Positions 29,408 through 39,435 of a stretch of DNA of 64,000 nucleotides are shown one piece after another (positions within the stretch are counted from its first letter, which is position 1; every line of letters begins with the position of its first letter). Under the pieces are notes generated by a model. It worked only from the letters and a program-made list of their open reading frames with translations, made no database searches and had not been told where the DNA came from. Source of the DNA: Wenjunlia tyrosinilytica (GTDB lineage: Bacteria; Actinomycetota; Actinomycetes; Streptomycetales; Streptomycetaceae); the NCBI RefSeq assembly GCF_014646055.1, contig NZ_BMMS01000023.1, forward strand, positions 62,194-126,193, written 5' to 3'. Position numbers and translations under genes: made by a program.

Positions 29408-29611
29408 CTAACCGGTCAGTGCCACGAGTGCAGTTGTCAGGTTGGCGGCGAGGGTGAGGGTGGCTGCGAAGACAAGGGCGGCGCGGCTGAGGGCGGCCTG
29501 AGGGGTGGCATGGTCGCAGCGGGCGAGGTAGCCGGCGGCGGCAGCGGCCAAGACAGCGACGATCACCGCAAGAACACAGGCCAGCAGAATCATGACGGTG
29601 CGATCGGACAT
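29408..29611 (-). CDS. 67-aa membrane protein
   Basis: MSDRTVMILLACVLAVIVAV begins the first hydrophobic helix and AALSRAALVFAATLTLAANLTTALVAL is the second; they are joined by a short loop with LARCDHATPQ. Two-helix proteins of this form are widespread in Streptomyces, often beside XRE/TPR-type genes; function is unknown. It is divergent from the large HTH/P-loop gene, with only 138 bases between, so the two may share a control region. Confidence 0.65.
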   Translation of the reverse strand: MSDRTVMILLACVLAVIVAVLAAAAAGYLARCDHATPQAALSRAALVFAATLTLAANLTTALVALTG

Positions 29612-29749
29612 GATGCGTGGTTCCCCTTTCGGCACAACGTGGTAGACAGCGGTGCCGAATCTGGCAAAGCAGGTGTTCGCCGTGGTGCGAGTGGTCGAAG
29701 ATGAACACCAGCGGACAGCCAACGTCAACAGCGGGGGGAGCAGGGGCGG

Positions 29750-31978
29750 GTGGTTGCGGAAGGGCTCCACGACCCGGCGGCACTGCGCGCCCTGCACGAC
29801 CGCCTGGAGGCGGCCCGGGTCAAGCAGGGGCTGGACAAGACACAGCTGGCCAACCGCAGCAGATTGAGCCGCACCACCGTCAGCCAGGCATTCAGCCACT
29901 CCGCGCGCACGGTGCCCTCGGCCGACACCCTCGGCGCCCTCGCGGCCGCACTGGAACTGGACGTTCAGCCACTGCTCGAGTTACGCAGGGCCGCCATCGG
30001 CCCAACAGCGTCCCCGGCCGTTCCCCCCGGGGTAGGGCAACCGATCGCGGCCTGTGACCCCCTTGCCCTTGAAGTCCACCCAGCCGTCGACGTCCCACAC
30101 CAAAACCACCGCCGCCGCCCGAATTCACCCCGGCAACCGAGGCCAACAGCCATCCTCCCCCACTACGTACCGCGCCTGCACGATGCCATCCTGGCCAACC
30201 TGGTCGAGACCGCAGCCGACGGGCACAGCCAGATCGCCGTGCTCGTCGGCTCCTCCTCCACCGGAAAAACCCGCGCCTGCTGGGAAGCCGTCCAGCCCCT
30301 GGCCGGGCGCGGTTGGCAGCTGTGGCACCCCTTCGATCCCACCCGCGCCGAAGCCGCCCTGGCCGACCTGGACCGAGTCGGCCCGCGCACGGTGGTCTGG
30401 CTGAACGAGGCCCAGCACTACCTGGGCGCCGGTACCGGCGTAGGCGAGAGGATCGCAGCGGCCTTACACACCCTGCTAACCAACTCCGCCTGCGGACCAG
30501 TACTGGTCCTGGGCACACTGTGGCCGCAATACGCCCGCAACTACACCACCATGCCCCACCCGGGCCTACCGGACCCCCACTCGCGGGTGCGCGAGCTACT
30601 GGACGGGCACCTGATCACACTGCCCGATCACTTCGACACCGACGCCATCGCCGCCATGCAGGCCCTCGCCGATGCCGGAGACGAGCAACTCGCCCACGCC
30701 CTGGAACATGCCCGCGACGCACGGCTGACCCAGTTCCTGGCCGGAGCGCCACACCTGCTGCGCCGCTACCATGCCGCCACCCCGGCAGCTCGCGCAGTGC
30801 TCGAGGCGGCGATGGACGCGCGCCGCCTCGGGGCCAGTCTGCACCTGCCAATGGCCTTCCTCGCCCATGCCGCAGAGGACTACCTGGGCGACGACGACTT
30901 CGACCTCCTCCAAGACGACTGGTTCGATCAGGCCCTCACCGAACTCGCCACACCCGTGCACGGCAACCTCGCCCCGCTGCGCCGCGTGCGCACCCGCCGC
31001 ACCCGCCGCCCCATGGACGCGTCCTCCACCCCGGACGCCGCACGTCCGACGCTGTACCGGCTCGCCGACTTCCTCGAACAACACGGACAGCGCACACGTC
31101 GCAGGCTGTGCCCCCCGGCATCCTTCTGGGAGGCTGCCCATCACCACTTCACCAGCCCCGATGATCTCGCCCACCTCGCCGATTCCGCATCCAACCGCTA
31201 CCGCAACCAGTGGGCCAACCCCCTATGGCACAAGGCCGCCTACGCCGGAAACACCACTGCCCTGCTGTGGCTTGCCTGGATACGTGAAGAGGCCGGGGAC
31301 CACGAGGGTGCCGAAGCTGCCTGTCAACGCGCCGCCGACGCCGGAAACACCGACGCCCTACTCCGGCTCGCCCAGATGCGGGAGAGGGCCGAGGACCACG
31401 AGGGGGCTGAAGCCGCCTATCAGCGCGCCGCCGACGCCAGCAGTACCAGCGCCCTGCTGTGGCTCGTCCGAATGCGGGAGAGGGCAGGGGACCACGAGGG
31501 TGCCGAAGCCGCCTATCAACGCGCCGCCGACGCCGGAAACACCGACGCCCTCCATCGGCTGGCCCGGATGCGGGAGAAGGCCGGGGACCGCGACGGGGCC
31601 GAGGCTCTGTACCAGCGTGCCGCCAGCGTCGGCGACACCAGCGCCCTCTTGTGGGTTGCCCAGATGCGGGAGAGGGCCGAGGACCACGAGGGGGCTGAAG
31701 CCGCCTACCAGCGCGCCGCCGACGCCGGAAACACCGACGCCCTACTCCGGCTCGCCCAGATGCGGGAGAGGACTGGGGACCACGACGGGGCCGAACGCCT
31801 CGCCCGCCAAGCCGCCGACGCCGGACATACCTACGCCCTGTACCGGCTTGCTGAGATGCGGGAGAAGGCCGGGGACCGCGACGGGGCGGAACGTCTCGCC
31901 CGCCAAGCCGCCAACATCGGAAACACCGACGCCCTACTCCGGCTCGCCGAGACGCGGGAGAAGGACGGGGACGCGTGA
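29750..31978 (+). CDS. XRE-HTH / P-loop NTPase / repeat protein, STAND-like sensor
   Basis: The product is 742 aa from GTG 29750, with a purine-rich GGGGGGAG about 12 bases upstream. Domains: XRE-type HTH at about 10-70 (LRALHDRLEAARVKQGLDKT, LANRSRLSRTTVSQAFSH); a P-loop NTPase with Walker A GSSSTGKT at 167-174 and a Walker-B-like VVWLNEAQHYL near 215; a helical middle region; and from residue 499 eight tandem 32-residue helical repeats (consensus AGNTDALLRLAQMRERAxD then HEGAEAAYQRAAD). Architecture follows STAND proteins, in which repeats sense, the NTPase switches, and the N-terminal domain acts, here by DNA binding. A defence or regulatory role is possible; no neighbour gives a direct clue. 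Confidence 0.85.
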   Translation: MVAEGLHDPAALRALHDRLEAARVKQGLDKTQLANRSRLSRTTVSQAFSHSARTVPSADTLGALAAALELDVQPLLELRRAAIGPTASPAVPPGVGQPIAACDPLALEVHPAVDVPHQNHRRRPNSPRQPRPTAILPHYVPRLHDAILANLVETAADGHSQIAVLVGSSSTGKTRACWEAVQPLAGRGWQLWHPFDPTRAEAALADLDRVGPRTVVWLNEAQHYLGAGTGVGERIAAALHTLLTNSACGPVLVLGTLWPQYARNYTTMPHPGLPDPHSRVRELLDGHLITLPDHFDTDAIAAMQALADAGDEQLAHALEHARDARLTQFLAGAPHLLRRYHAATPAARAVLEAAMDARRLGASLHLPMAFLAHAAEDYLGDDDFDLLQDDWFDQALTELATPVHGNLAPLRRVRTRRTRRPMDASSTPDAARPTLYRLADFLEQHGQRTRRRLCPPASFWEAAHHHFTSPDDLAHLADSASNRYRNQWANPLWHKAAYAGNTTALLWLAWIREEAGDHEGAEAACQRAADAGNTDALLRLAQMRERAEDHEGAEAAYQRAADASSTSALLWLVRMRERAGDHEGAEAAYQRAADAGNTDALHRLARMREKAGDRDGAEALYQRAASVGDTSALLWVAQMRERAEDHEGAEAAYQRAADAGNTDALLRLAQMRERTGDHDGAERLARQAADAGHTYALYRLAEMREKAGDRDGAERLARQAANIGNTDALLRLAETREKDGDA
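31244..31975 (+). repeat. 96-bp tandem repeats encoding 32-aa helical repeats
   Basis: Seven full units and one partial unit with a 96-bp period form the 3' third of the STAND-like gene. Units 2 and 6 (starting about 31340 and 31724) share long nearly identical DNA, more similar than adjacent units are, which indicates recent copying within the array. Changes in copy number would keep the frame, because 96 is divisible by three. Confidence 0.85.
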
Positions 31979-32229
31979 ACATGCACGCCGAGCGGGAGGA
32001 GGCTTCTGCTCGCACGGCTCCACGGCCTCGACTCAGCGTGCGCGCCCCGAAAACGCAACATGGCACGCACTCGGCGGGTCAGCACTCCCGGCACGGAGCG
32101 CATCGCGGCGAGCTCCGGGCCTTCGGCGTCGTCGGCGGTCAGGTCGTCCTCGATCTGCTGGAGGGCGAGCTGGGCGATGCCGACCGAGGCGCGGACGCGT
32201 TCCAGGCGAGTGCGGGAGCGGCCGGTCAC
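31831..32229 (-). CDS. hypothetical protein, probably truncated
   Basis: The frame starts at GTG 32229, overlapping the TGA of the upstream small gene (GTGA). The first ~65 residues (RLERVRASVGIAQLALQQIE, DDLTADDAEGPELAAMRSVP, GVLTRRVRAMLRF) look genuine and helical. Beyond about 32030 the frame runs antisense into the STAND-like gene and becomes Arg/Ser-rich, so the true 3' end has probably been lost. Function is unknown. Confidence 0.4.
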   Translation of the reverse strand: MTGRSRTRLERVRASVGIAQLALQQIEDDLTADDAEGPELAAMRSVPGVLTRRVRAMLRFRGAHAESRPWSRASRSLLPLGVHVHASPSFSRVSASRSRASVFPMLAAWRARRSAPSRSPAFSRISASRYRA

Positions 32230-32459
32230 CGGGTGGTCGCCTTGGTGGTGGCGATGAGCGCGGCGACGGTCTCCAAGTCGTGCTGCCAGGCGGAGTCCAG
32301 GTGGAAGGCGCCTTCTCTGAACCAGGAGAAGGCTGTTCGGACACCGCCGGCCACGCACGAGTCACGAATGCGGAACCCCTGACCGTGACTCTTCACTTTC
32401 ACCCCTGAATGAGAGCAAAAGGGGCATGCGGCTGAGTCGCATTTGATCGGGTCGACCAT
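32226..32459 (-). CDS. 77-aa hypothetical protein
   Basis: The visible C-terminal half, RIRDSCVAGGVRTAFSWFRE then GAFHLDSAWQHDLETVAALI, has balanced composition, and the stop overlaps the next gene's GTG. The N-terminal part (MVDPIKCDSAACPFCSHSG) contains two Cys pairs, but the start choice is uncertain. It may be part of a small two-gene unit of an integrated element. Confidence 0.4.
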   Translation of the reverse strand: MVDPIKCDSAACPFCSHSGVKVKSHGQGFRIRDSCVAGGVRTAFSWFREGAFHLDSAWQHDLETVAALIATTKATTR

Positions 32460-32802
32460 GTCGTGGAGGGTCTCGGCTCCAATCTCGCGGCCGGTTGCAT
32501 CGTTTGTACTCCGTCTGCCCAGTTCAAGACTCGACGTTCAGCAGGCTGGACTTCGAGATGGCCTACTTGCTCAGGCCAAAGAGGGCCAGTGAGCAGGCAC
32601 TCAGGTTTGATTTCAGCCGAGCACGGGCGCCCACCATTCGGCGTAAGGTGAGGCGCGTGGGTTTGCCTGAGGAGGGGTTCCACTAGACCATGAGGGTGAA
32701 CCGGCGTCTGCGGGCCGCTGCCTGAAAAGGCGGCGGCCCCCTGCTGTCACAGGAGGCCGCCGGCGGTGATGAATCCGATCTCCCGTGAAAGGAGCCGTCT
32801 TC
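32460..32802. other. 343-bp gap with a possible hairpin before the small membrane gene
   Basis: No convincing gene was found. At 32728-32762 complementary GGCGGC and GCCGCC runs around CCCCCTGCTGTCACAGGAGG could form a hairpin, 40 bases before the 83-aa gene; it may be a terminator or leader structure. The region is slightly lower in GC than its neighbours. Confidence 0.3.
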
Positions 32803-33445: not shown

Positions 33446-35314
33446 TCAGCTGTCGGAGCGGAATGCGCCGTGGACGCGCAGGTTGCCTTGGATCGCCACC
33501 TGGTCGTCGTTGACGTGCATGAGCCAGTCGGTCCCGTTGCGGACCGACAGGTGCCCGTTGGCGTTCACCTTCCCGATGAACAGCGAATCCTCCTGGACGC
33601 GCAGGCCGCCGTTGACCGAAATCTGGTCGTCGTTGGTGTGCAGGATCCAGCCGCCGCCGTTGCGGACCGACAGGTGCCCGTTGGCGTTCACCTTCCCCTC
33701 GAACTGCGACTCCCCGTGGACGACGAGTTTGAACTGGTTGTCCTCGGTGGTCAGCTTGCCCCTGACCGTCAGGTCGCCCGCGTGGACCGCACCCCCGACC
33801 TCCAGGTTCCGCATCGGCCGCAGATCGCCGTTGACGGTGAGGTCACCCCCGGCGACGACGTTCCCGGCGGCGTTCACCTCGCCCTCGGCGTCCAGCCGGC
33901 CGCGGACGACCAGGCGGGGCGGGCCGTCCTGCGTCTCCAGCACGTTGTCGACGGTCAGCCCGCCCTGGAGGATGAGGCGTTCCTTGACCTGGGCCCGGCG
34001 AGTGACCAGGTCGTCCAGGTCTGCCTTGGCGGCCGCGACGGTTCCCCACTGATGGTTTCCGGCGCCTTGGTACACGTTCAGCCCGGCGGATGGGAAGGCG
34101 ATCCATCCGTCGTCGGCTGTGCGGCCTTGCACCCACGCGGTGTTGATGCCGTTCATGTCCGCCTTGTCGCCGGCGACGGTGCCCCACGCCTGCTGTCCGT
34201 CCTTGCGCACGTTCACGCCGGACTGCGGGAACTCGGCCCAGCCCTTGCCGCCGTCGCGGTCGCCGACCCACGGGGTGTTCACGCCGTTCGCGGCGCCGAC
34301 CTTGTCAGCCGTGACGGTACCCAAGTCGCTTCCCGCTCCATGGCCGACCGTGATCCCGGTGGGCGGGAACTGGATCCAGCCGGCGTCGTTGCCGCGGCCC
34401 TGCACCGACGTGGTGGTGACGCTGTCGACGTCGGCCTTGGCGGCCGTGACGGTGCCAGGCGCGTTGGAGTCGTTGTGGATCTGCGCGCCTTGTGCGGTGA
34501 ACGTGATCCGCCCCTTGTCCGCGGTGCCCTCGACCCACGGGGTGTGCAGTCCGTTGGTGGCGGTGACGCTCTCGAACTCGGGGCTGCGCAGGTGGACGGT
34601 GGTGGTGAGGATGTACTCCGGCTGTTGCTGCTGCGGTGACGAGGTGGCTGTCAGGGTGTAGGTGGCGTCCCGCTTCGGCTCCTCGCCCGCCGCCGGCGTC
34701 CACTCCCAGCCGGTCCCGGCCGTGTGCGGGGGGTTCTTTGAGGGGCCGTCCGGTCCATGGATCTGGTAGGTGAAGGTGTCGGATCCCTCCCACTGCAGGA
34801 CGACGCTCTTGCCCGCGGCCACCAGAGACTGCTTCGGACGGAAGTTGCGCGGCGCCTTGGGGGCCTGCTTCAGCAGGCTCAGCGTCACGGGGGAGTCCTG
34901 CTTCCAGGGACCATTCCACACCGTCTCCGTCACCCGCAGCAGGACCGGCCCCGGCGTGCTGGAGACCGGGAAGCCCTCCAGCGCGAGGATCATGGAACCG
35001 CTCGCCTTGAAGTACGTGGTGGGCTGGGGGGTCACGGTGAAGACACCTGTCGTGGCGTCCCAGTTGGTCACCGGCTCTTCCCCCGGCATCCTCGATTTGT
35101 CCGGCAGGACCCGAGCCGTGATCGCCTTCGGATCGGGCGTCAGGGCATCCTCCTGTTGCCCGAAGGGCACTTGCACCGTGAGGGAAACCCAGGCCATGTC
35201 CTGGTCCTTCGGGTTGGAGGCGACGATGTAGACCGCTCCCTTGGACGTTCCGCCCGCCTCCGACACCTGGAGCGGAGCCGGGTCGGTGAGGATGTTGTAA
35301 ACAAGAAAAGCCAC
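33446..35314 (-). CDS. large beta-rich repeat protein, fibre- or bactofilin-like
   Basis: The product is 622 aa from GTG 35314 (GGGGGG eight bases upstream). N-terminal beta-sandwich modules (residues 1 to about 250, with FLVYNILTDPAPLQVSEAGG and VVLQWEGSDTFTYQIHG) are followed by three roughly 48-residue repeats (NTPWVGDRDGGKGWAEFPQS, NTAWVQGRTADDGWIAFPSA). A C-terminal run of short strands (GGDLTVNGDLRPMRNLEVGG, then two copies of GKVNANGHLSVRN) is typical of beta-helices in phage fibres. There is no signal peptide and no enzyme motif. A trimeric fibre or adhesin-like role is inferred; it may belong to an element or serve as a receptor-binding protein. Confidence 0.7.
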   Translation of the reverse strand: MAFLVYNILTDPAPLQVSEAGGTSKGAVYIVASNPKDQDMAWVSLTVQVPFGQQEDALTPDPKAITARVLPDKSRMPGEEPVTNWDATTGVFTVTPQPTTYFKASGSMILALEGFPVSSTPGPVLLRVTETVWNGPWKQDSPVTLSLLKQAPKAPRNFRPKQSLVAAGKSVVLQWEGSDTFTYQIHGPDGPSKNPPHTAGTGWEWTPAAGEEPKRDATYTLTATSSPQQQQPEYILTTTVHLRSPEFESVTATNGLHTPWVEGTADKGRITFTAQGAQIHNDSNAPGTVTAAKADVDSVTTTSVQGRGNDAGWIQFPPTGITVGHGAGSDLGTVTADKVGAANGVNTPWVGDRDGGKGWAEFPQSGVNVRKDGQQAWGTVAGDKADMNGINTAWVQGRTADDGWIAFPSAGLNVYQGAGNHQWGTVAAAKADLDDLVTRRAQVKERLILQGGLTVDNVLETQDGPPRLVVRGRLDAEGEVNAAGNVVAGGDLTVNGDLRPMRNLEVGGAVHAGDLTVRGKLTTEDNQFKLVVHGESQFEGKVNANGHLSVRNGGGWILHTNDDQISVNGGLRVQEDSLFIGKVNANGHLSVRNGTDWLMHVNDDQVAIQGNLRVHGAFRSDS

Positions 35315-35663
35315 TGCTGAAACCCCCCTGGATTCTGCTGGGCGTGCGCCCGTCCCCACGGGCCAGTCCCCGTACGGTCCATATCGCTGTCCCGCCCGAC
35401 GGCCCATGAACCCCGATGCGCCACAACCGGCGCGAACCAGACCTACACTGGCCGAAACAGGGATTACCGACGTTCCGGTGCAAGGTCGCCAGGGCAAGGC
35501 CGGTCGCGAGCACGCGTCGACCCCGCCCGCTCGAAGAAGCCGCGCAGCAGGTGAACCCCCCGCACGATCAATCCCGCCGGGATTTCCTGTGCGCCAGCTA
35601 CTCGCAGCCGGATTTCCAGCGCAGGCCCAGGCGTAACAGGCAGTCACTGATCCCGCAGCTTGT

Positions 35664-35813
35664 TCAGCGGATGCCGGTGATGTGCAGGCCGCGGTGGGCG
35701 AGGAAGCCGTCCCGCTCCGCGTCCTCGCCGGGGATCCAGAGCTGTTCGGCGGGGTGCGTGGTGCCATTGCCGGCCTCGGTGGTCTCGATCTCGTACAGGG
35801 CCGTGGCGGTCAC
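35664..35813 (-). CDS. 49-aa hypothetical protein, copy B of a duplicated family
   Basis: VTATALYEIETTEAGNGTTH, then PAEQLWIPGEDAERDGFLAH and RGLHITGIR. The GTG start overlaps the TGA of the preceding frame. The first ~38 residues are nearly identical to those of the 81-aa gene at 36999-37244 while the C-termini differ completely, so one copy was truncated or recombined. Function is unknown; such proteins occur in actinobacterial integrated elements. Confidence 0.55.
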   Translation of the reverse strand: MTATALYEIETTEAGNGTTHPAEQLWIPGEDAERDGFLAHRGLHITGIR

Positions 35814-36312: not shown

Positions 36313-36831
36313 TCACCCGTTCCGGTGCTGCGAGAGCTGTGCTTGTGTGGCTGCCAGGGTCTCGGTGAGCGTGGAGAACACAGTGGTGTCAGGGCGGGCG
36401 AGCCGGGTCTGCCAGCGGACGTCTTCGACCCGCGGGTAGTCGGGGTCAGCGCCGACGACGAGGCGGCGGGCGGGATTGTCCAGGGCAGCGCCGAGCTCGA
36501 ACATGGCGATGGGCTGGACACCGCCCGGTGGGAACCAGAACATCGTCAGCACGCTTGGAAGGTGCAGGCAGCGGTGCTCCCACTGGATCTGGATTGAGGT
36601 CTGGCCGGGATCGTCGATGGGGAAGTGACGCCGCCGGGGATTCAGCACGATCACGTTGAAGTCGGCGAGCGCGGCCGTCGCCGGCTTCTGCCAGTTCTCG
36701 ACTCCGGTGATGCCGCCGGCAAGGAACACTGCGGGGGGATCGTCCGGCGCCGGGTGGTAGGTGTCCGGGCATTCGTAGTAGCGCGGCAGGGGCGTCTGGT
36801 CGTCGTCGGGTATGTCGGTGTGCGCGATCAT
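36313..36831 (-). CDS. nucleoside 2-deoxyribosyltransferase-like protein
   Basis: The product is 172 aa from ATG 36831 (ATGA overlap with the frame upstream). VFLAGGITGVENWQ is the start motif of the nucleoside 2-deoxyribosyltransferase-like fold; NVIVLNPRRRHFP, WEHRCLHLPSVLTMFWFPPG and PIAMFELGAALDNPARRLVV (containing the Glu that is the family nucleophile) complete it. Members exchange bases on deoxyribose or hydrolyse nucleoside derivatives. In actinobacteria close homologues often sit in phages and integrated elements. It is flanked by the two copies of the duplicated small-gene pair. Confidence 0.8.
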   Translation of the reverse strand: MIAHTDIPDDDQTPLPRYYECPDTYHPAPDDPPAVFLAGGITGVENWQKPATAALADFNVIVLNPRRRHFPIDDPGQTSIQIQWEHRCLHLPSVLTMFWFPPGGVQPIAMFELGAALDNPARRLVVGADPDYPRVEDVRWQTRLARPDTTVFSTLTETLAATQAQLSQHRNG

Positions 36832-37002
36832 TCCGTGCCCTTCGCTGGGGTATTCCTGCAAGTCGTGGGGCGCAGTGGGGTGACCCGTCCTCCGGTTGCG
36901 GCGAGCTCTTGGCGGAGCTGGGTGTTGTCGTGGTGCAGAGCCGCGAGGGTGACCGGCTGGGAAGCGCTCCAGCACGGTGCGCCGCGCGGTCGCGGTAGTC
37001 AT
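36828..37002 (-). pseudogene. small protein gene with apparent frameshift
   Basis: ATG 37002 overlaps the upstream TGA and begins MTTATARRTVLERFPA. After an extra base in CCAGCCGGTC the coding continues as VTLAALHHDNTQLRQELAAT then GGRVTPLRPTTCRNTPAKGT, and the stop at 36828 overlaps the next ATG. Both ends fit the operon, so it is a real gene that is either frameshifted or misread by one base. The helix LHHDNTQLRQEL may form a coiled coil. Confidence 0.5.
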
Positions 37003-37662: not shown

Positions 37663-38079
37663 TCAGCAGGTGGATGCGCTGCCGGGGATTTCGAGGTCGC
37701 CATCGACGTACTGGGCGCGGCCGAAGCCGAAGGACCAGTCGGCCGCGGTGTTCTCGACGTATCCGATGAACACGTCCTCCCCGGCCACGCCCACCTTTGA
37801 CAGGGAACGAGCGATCGCGGCGTAGAGTCGCTGCTTGGTCTGCGTCGAGCGCCCTGCCTGCGTGAAGACCTGAACCATCACGACGCCGTCGCTTCGCTCG
37901 AACCCCAGGCCGGCGTCCTGCGCGATGACGTGGCCGCGCTCGTGCTCGGTGATGAGCTGGAACCGGTCGCGGCCCGGGATTCCCAGCGTGTCCACGACGG
38001 CGCCGTGGATGGCGTCGGCGACGGCGCCGACCTGGGCCTCGGTACGGCCCTTGACGAGGTCGATGCGGATAAGAGGCAT
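37663..38079 (-). CDS. tautomerase-superfamily protein
   Basis: The product is 138 aa: MPLIRIDLVKGRTEAQVGAV. Proline directly after the initiator Met is the general base of the 4-oxalocrotonate tautomerase superfamily. RFQLITEHERGHVI and VMVQVFTQAGRSTQTKQRLY follow, with two beta-alpha-beta units. The usual substrates are keto-enol acids from aromatic degradation; none is evident here. It is divergent from a LysR regulator across a clear palindrome, so it is the likely target of that regulator. Confidence 0.88.
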   Translation of the reverse strand: MPLIRIDLVKGRTEAQVGAVADAIHGAVVDTLGIPGRDRFQLITEHERGHVIAQDAGLGFERSDGVVMVQVFTQAGRSTQTKQRLYAAIARSLSKVGVAGEDVFIGYVENTAADWSFGFGRAQYVDGDLEIPGSASTC

Positions 38080-38182
38080 GAGTCGAGACTCCTTGCTGGT
38101 GGTTGATGGCGGTGCTGCGGAACGTGCCTCCAGGCTGTCCTCGGACGACCCATAGGTCAAAGACCTGGATCTTTTCGCAGCT

Positions 38183-38199
38183 ATAAGAAGTTCATATAC
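38183..38199. promoter_or_regulatory. near-perfect LysR-type palindrome between tautomerase and LysR genes
   Basis: TATAAGAAGTTCATATA (38183-38199) is symmetrical around its central G with 7 of 8 arm bases matching. It is AT-rich against a GC-rich background, lies 10 bases before the LysR ATG and about 104 bases before the tautomerase ATG, and fits the T-N11-A form. It probably also contains promoter elements, so LysR would repress itself while activating the divergent gene. Confidence 0.65.
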
Positions 38200-38208
38200 A
38201 TTGAGGTC

Positions 38209-39105
38209 ATGGAGGCTCGCACACTGCAGTACTTCCTTGCCGTGGCCGAGGAACGGTCCTTCACCTGGGCCGCGGCCCGCTGTCATGTCGCACAGCCCGC
38301 CATCAGCCAGCAAATCCGTTCCTTGGAACGGGAATTGGGCGAAGCGCTGTTCGAGCGCGACTCCCGAAGCGTCCGCCTGACTGCCGCGGGCGATGCCCTC
38401 ATGCCGCACGCCCGTGCGGTGACAGCGGCCATCACCGCCGCGAAGGCCGAGTTCGCCGCGCGATCCGGCCTGCTCACCGGGAACCTCGTGCTGGGAGCCG
38501 CCGACGGGGTGGAGAGCAGCAGCCTGCCCGCACTGCTCGGCACGTTCCACAGGCTCCATCCCGGGATCAGCGTGCAACTCGTCGAGGGCGCGAGTGCCGC
38601 CCTGGTTCCCCAGGTGCGCCAGGGGTCCCTGGACGCGGTGTTCGTCGCCGTGCCGATGGACGGCCTCGATCCGGCCGAGCACCGGGTGCTCGTGCGCAAC
38701 GAGATCGTGGCGTTGGTCGCCTCCGACCAACCGCAGGCCGGGCAGGAGGTCCTGCACCTGGAGGAGTTCTCCTCGGTCCCGTTGATCACCTACGGCCGGG
38801 ACAGCGGCCTGTACCCCCGGCTGCGTGCCGCTTTCGAAGCGGCAGGGGTTCCCCTGCGACCCGCCTACGCCACCAACCATGTCGCGCTGCAACTGGAACT
38901 CGTCGCGGCCGGTGTCGGCATCGCCCTCGCCGCGGGAGCGGCCGGAGGCATCGCCAGGGATCCGCGGGTTACGGTGGTACCGGTCGCGCCTCGCATCGCC
39001 TACGCCAAGGCACTGATCTGGCGCGGCAGTTCGTACCTGTCGGCTCCCCTGCGCGCGCTGCTCGACCTGCTGCCGCCGGACGACGAGCACACGCTCACCG
39101 CGTGA
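38209..39105 (+). CDS. LysR-family transcriptional regulator
   Basis: The product is 298 aa: MEARTLQYFLAVAEERSFTW followed by the HTH (HVAQPAISQQIRSLERELGE) and a periplasmic-binding-like effector domain (LVLGAADGVESSSLPALLGT onward). Length is normal for LysR (about 300 aa). Divergent transcription from the tautomerase gene and the palindrome between them indicate control of that gene in response to a small, probably aromatic or acid, effector. Confidence 0.93.
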   Translation: MEARTLQYFLAVAEERSFTWAAARCHVAQPAISQQIRSLERELGEALFERDSRSVRLTAAGDALMPHARAVTAAITAAKAEFAARSGLLTGNLVLGAADGVESSSLPALLGTFHRLHPGISVQLVEGASAALVPQVRQGSLDAVFVAVPMDGLDPAEHRVLVRNEIVALVASDQPQAGQEVLHLEEFSSVPLITYGRDSGLYPRLRAAFEAAGVPLRPAYATNHVALQLELVAAGVGIALAAGAAGGIARDPRVTVVPVAPRIAYAKALIWRGSSYLSAPLRALLDLLPPDDEHTLTA

Positions 39106-39435
39106 CCCCGGGTTCCCGGCCGCGTCGGCCGTGTGGCGCGTCGCGTCATCCGGCGAACGCCTCGGCGCAGACCCCGGCGCGGTGTCGTACGGCGTGACCA
39201 TCCCACGGCGTTGACGCCCTCGCCGCGGATTCCGCCGGTCCTCCTCCGGCCCGATTCACGGCCCGGAGCCCACGTCGGGGTCGGCGGCATGGGCACCGCA
39301 CCCCGAAGAGCGAGTGGATCATCACTCATCGTCATGGCAGAAAAGTTGGGTTTCTTGTCATTGCCGCCATTACGACTCGGTGCGATGCTGAGCGTGCGAC
39401 GGCCTCGAAGGATGCGGGGAAAGGACGGTGGACCA

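Follow-up and report, generated by a model that had tools for sequence, protein, structure and literature searches.

The window, a stretch of 64,000 nucleotides from Wenjunlia tyrosinilytica, encodes a 742-aa protein that joins an XRE-type helix-turn-helix (HTH) domain, a STAND-like NTPase and a Sel1/TPR-type repeat array, and, divergently from it, a small protein with two hydrophobic segments (Table 1). A conserved inverted-repeat element of ~45 bp is flanked by the two genes. On balance, we slightly favor the interpretation that the pair forms a conflict module of the immune type, i.e., a STAND-type sensor that acts through a membrane effector under transcriptional control.

Table 1. Features of the two-gene locus, in window coordinates.
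Feature	Position	Strand	Basis or remarks
67-aa two-TM protein, conserved divergent partner (TM1 - LAR.D.ATYP.A loop - TM2)	29408..29611	-	138 bp from large gene
Predicted operator GTGTTCGCCGTGGTGC-N5-GTCGAAGATGAACAC-cagCGGACAG	29673..29719	.	inverted half-sites GTGTTCG / CGAACAC
HTH - STAND-like NTPase - Sel1/TPR protein, whole gene	29750..31978	+	742 aa, GTG start
XRE-type HTH, aa 19-73	29804..29968	+	Pfam HTH_3, E 2.6e-6, above Pfam cut-off
Walker A GSSSTGKT, aa 167-174	30248..30271	+	G and K (near-)invariant in 98 cores
Walker B-like TVVWLNEAQ, aa 214-222	30389..30415	+	WL invariant, N/D then E/D in 98/98 cores
GxP-like motif LAGAPHLL, as in STAND NTPases	30737..30760	+	P in 90/98 cores
Seven full and a partial eighth 32-aa helix-pair repeats, predicted sensor	31235..31975	+	TRF, unit table, AlphaFold, Sel1 structures

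The architecture of HTH, P-loop and repeats that had been proposed for the large ORF was confirmed by the HTH_3 match, the GSSSTGKT motif and the 32-aa array, and AlphaFold models of the protein show an HTH predicted with confidence, a core of AAA+/STAND type and a regular solenoid of helix pairs. Foldseek matches to the HTH include CapH-N, C.BclI and DdrO. The head is of the HTH_3 type, and a search of the 742-aa protein for a SARP-type head (OmpR-type DNA-binding domain plus BTAD) yielded no BTAD or Trans_reg_C match. A second full-type family member in the same genome, 61% identical to the window gene, is cut by a contig end. The window copy may be truncated, given that it lacks the C-terminal tail PYGLDPDGTPTxPW found in 26 of 38 XRE-headed members; a frameshift hiding the tail was rejected, as the tail occurs in none of the three downstream frames. 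The original prediction did not include this loss of the tail, nor the operator or the exchange of effectors within the family.

In a family alignment, the Walker A pattern G....GK[ST] and the Walker B pattern WL[ND][ED] are present in essentially all 98 distinct NTPase cores, and an R..D box before Walker B, a T..W strand and the GxP-like LAGAP motif are near-invariant as well. Three hallmarks of STAND NTPases are found: a Walker A motif with a Walker B motif of the form hhhh[DN][DE], the GxP motif that in STANDs precedes the winged helix (LAG(A/G)P.L, assigned by pattern only), and C-terminal superstructure-forming repeats, here the Sel1/TPR solenoid. The modeled core (aa 93-333) resembles AAA+ proteins (NSF-D2, Z 13.7) and ORC; Apaf-1 and CED-4 are among the Foldseek matches of the core, with low TM, and aa 320-460 are partly of low confidence in the model. 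Comparing the first model with the PDB singled out no chain as an evident STAND relative ahead of generic AAA+ proteins. The predicted STAND-like layout of HTH, NTPase and repeats is supported. However, a Pfam search with the 742-aa protein reached no curated STAND, NACHT or NB-ARC model (AAA_16 only, below its cut-off), and we therefore claim more strongly that the protein works like a STAND than that it belongs to the STAND superfamily.

In the window gene, TRF detects tandem repeats at 31235-31972 with a period of 96 bp and 7.7 copies. The array, modeled with a pLDDT of about 90, is far beyond chance: it forms a Sel1/TPR solenoid that matches Sel1-repeat structures with Z up to 22.8. Since seven units are complete and the eighth comprises 23 aa, the count of eight 32-aa repeats in the original prediction was slightly generous. 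Units 2 and 6, said to have almost the same DNA, are indeed identical over their first 57 bp, but only 83% identical over the full 96 bp; the pairs 2/5 (85%) and 6/7 (84%) match as closely, so the similarity extends across the array and does not set units 2 and 6 apart. The change in copy number drawn from it is supported, as arrays range from 0 to 15 units among family members (none or one recognizable unit in L147, L148 and L143; 15 in L026 and L129) and are homogenized internally, with within-array unit identity of up to 100% and a consensus of its own for each array. This variation in number and consensus rules out a constant repeat sequence, which would have spoken against a recognition array. 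Homogenization of repeats can also be a neutral process, which counts against the immune reading.

The suggestion that the small membrane protein is a partner proved correct. A divergent two-TM gene lies upstream of 37 of the 38 distinct XRE-headed members and of none of the 60 other intact members (Fisher 3e-26; these counts are of distinct members and ignore shared ancestry), with the private element between the genes. Partner homologs are 42-66% identical and differ by 37/23/48% at codon positions 1/2/3, and all five strong matches (E<1e-20) of an HMM search of 61 genomes lie beside an XRE family member. The codon-position pattern, the pairing and these HMM matches led us to reject a chance ORF. 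Weaker, distant two-TM homologs occur without an adjoining family member, e.g., the orphan small proteins L164-L167 on other contigs and genomes, which have an LAR.DGAT.P loop and no HTH-NTPase neighbor. Among the orphan homologs examined, no pairing with other sensors of the same kind was seen. Given such orphans, a two-TM protein of this type need not be toxic, nor require a sensor, which is a point against the favored interpretation.

Across the XRE loci, the intergenic element has the consensus GTGTTCGCC.TGGTTC-N5-GACGAAGATGAACAC-cggCGAACAC. It scores 23-30 of 31 at 37 of 38 XRE loci and 21 at the remaining one, and the best score at the 60 non-XRE loci is 21 of 31. A search of the entire 8.49-Mb genome with the spacer unconstrained gives two copies, one before each family member. 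Judging from this, the predicted operator is a dedicated switch and not the site of a global regulator, because only two genomic sites exist, each before a family member; a regulon was rejected for the window genome on the same count. We infer that the HTH binds the element at 29673-29719, and likewise the direction of regulation.

Relatives of the large protein that lack this HTH carry other heads on the same NTPase. L149 has a caspase N-terminal to it (Pfam Peptidase_C14, 1e-10) and L084 a trypsin-like protease (Trypsin_2, 2e-14); Mrr-like nucleases are found on L087-L089 (Mrr_cat, 1.5e-5 for L088), alpha/beta hydrolases on L032, L035 and L115 (Hydrolase_4, 7e-5 for L032), and a weakly matched HNH domain on L039 (HNH_2, 0.002). 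L144, which has no HTH, lies opposite a restriction gene of the GmrSD type (GmrSD_N, 2e-27). In a tree of the NTPase, L149 with its caspase and L144 with its GmrSD neighbor both fall within the XRE clade (support 0.94 for L149 plus its XRE sister), and at both loci the two-TM partner is absent. Because of this nesting, HTH and partner have, by the tree, been replaced at L149 and L144. The cassette of HTH, element and partner has also moved as a unit, since L090 carries all three on a distant NTPase lineage. A second HTH-like class, which is not recognized by Pfam (outside the XRE class, several HTHs were assigned by eye), has an unrelated divergent two-TM protein in five of six members, with a spacing of ~580 nt as in the XRE class and its own repeated TGTCC/GGACA half-sites. 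At L096, L097, L103, L122 and L146 of this class, the two-TM protein has the motif LLLALS.ALH.G.AAAFTAWR.GT.

A single-protein query detected the NTPase in 88 of 294 genomes of the order (Streptomycetales), often as decayed pieces. In an even sample of the phylum, three of 396 genomes match, each belonging to the family of the window genome, and the named relatives are from Streptomyces; the NTPase belongs to a patchy family of Streptomycetales type. In one genome (G276, contig C1), matches of equal score at 31523-32503 and 9610360-9611340 lie in opposite orientation near both contig ends, so the gene is probably within the terminal inverted repeats of a linear chromosome. In an empty-site comparison, one congener's genome gave no match to the aminopeptidase gene flanking the window locus. 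Further genes of the window, all on the minus strand, include a 773-aa product (33446-35767) whose internal repeats are degenerate (GVNTPWV..GW..FP.SG) and whose C-terminal stretch weakly resembles bactofilin (Pfam 4e-5, below cut-off), a nucleoside 2-deoxyribosyltransferase-like domain (36313-37002; Pfam 2e-12), and a 512-aa ORF (37663-39201) that matches Tautomerase_2 only at its C-terminal end, leaving an unassigned N-terminal part of ~370 aa. A phage-borne origin was dropped, as the viral collection searched, with few peptide patterns, held no relative. The idea of a defense island was unsupported as well: the flanking genes are heterogeneous and share nothing, with few PADLOC matches (counted with no matched control set).

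In the mechanism that we propose, the Sel1/TPR array would be the sensor that meets the trigger, the NTPase would keep the large protein switched off or on, and the XRE HTH would occupy the operator shared by the divergent genes. A trigger on the array would cause a nucleotide-dependent change that alters operator occupancy and, in turn, expression of the two-TM gene, the product of which would act at the membrane, as an effector rather than as an anchor or receptor. The trigger might be an invader and the result growth arrest or death, which would give the module a role in defense. The immune reading is favored because the exchanged outputs are the ones known from STAND conflict systems, and because of the patchy distribution and the turnover of repeats. 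The sensor of bacterial immunity in the original prediction holds in part: relatives carry immune-type effector heads, but the flanks are not enriched in defense genes, and PADLOC has no specific model for the 742-aa protein (weak HTH-level matches to RmrA and HTH_VI only).

The closest working analogue of this mechanism would be AfsR, a large SARP of the STAND class in Streptomyces, in which a DNA-binding head is likewise combined with NOD and TPR parts; these hold back transcription of its key target, the small gene afsS, until ATP binds (PMC10936776). The similar layout in related bacteria also lends some weight to a physiological regulator of the AfsR type, i.e., an HTH-NOD-TPR transcription factor that, on nutrient or developmental signals, turns on a small neighboring regulatory gene and has no immune role, which we nevertheless consider unlikely: patchy presence and decay, two sites per genome, strongly diversifying repeats and the exchange with caspase or nuclease outputs are ill-suited to a core regulator. 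The present pair differs from AfsR-AfsS in having an XRE in place of a SARP head, in its presumed target, a divergent membrane protein, with two sites per genome, and in the exchange of heads with caspase or nucleases among relatives. Alternatively, the two-TM protein could be a membrane anchor or signal receptor that tethers or informs the HTH-STAND protein, the DNA binding of which is then released, as for membrane-sequestered regulators. The near-obligate pairing and the common element would fit this equally well, and TM helices do precede the NTPase in L034 (two, fused) and as an N-terminal segment in L048:4309-5511; the partner is, however, gone where an enzyme appears (L149, L144), which suits an effector better and makes an anchor or receptor rather improbable. 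A toxin-antitoxin-like addiction pair, mainly selfish, in which the HTH protein represses or neutralizes a small membrane toxin, would account for the private predicted operator, the divergent small hydrophobic ORF, the patchy distribution and the pseudogenes, but is very improbable, as addiction needs neither a long variable sensor array nor an NTPase, replacement by an enzyme output removes HTH and partner alike, and the viral collection searched held no relative.

The same order of effector head, NTPase and superstructure repeats is seen in the STAND conflict systems described for multicellular bacteria (Kaur et al., 2020; PMC7159879) and in the Avs-type antiphage STANDs summarized in PMC10907252, with caspase, trypsin, nuclease or TM outputs and lineage-specific variable sensors. 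In the XRE class, by contrast, the proposed output is a separate, regulated membrane gene instead of a fused enzyme, and the NTPase reaches no curated STAND model, only a weak AAA_16 match. HTH regulators of immune operons, such as CapH, share the HTH fold and, as predicted for the present protein, local control of an immune operon (PMC13373217, PMC9122588). In those regulators, no STAND NTPase with repeats is attached to the sensor kinase, protease or WYL domain (PMC13373217, PMC9122588), whereas sensor, switch and HTH of the 742-aa protein are one polypeptide. A literature search covering open-licence papers found no description of an HTH-NTPase/two-TM pair.

More tentatively, and with slightly less than even confidence, we propose that these proteins are a class of NLR-like sensors with a transcriptional effector arm: HTH, operator and membrane effector would be one exchangeable cassette that trades places with outputs of the caspase, GmrSD, Mrr, trypsin or hydrolase kind while the NTPase-repeat chassis stays the same, and would have arisen at least twice with unrelated two-TM proteins. 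If true, this would link STAND/NLR immunity, with its fused or assembled enzymes, to Streptomyces STAND regulators such as AfsR. The reading predicts an immune-type switch that produces its effector only after sensing, and the family would provide a natural swap series, with different outputs on the same chassis, one operator, and an array length that can be compared between strains.
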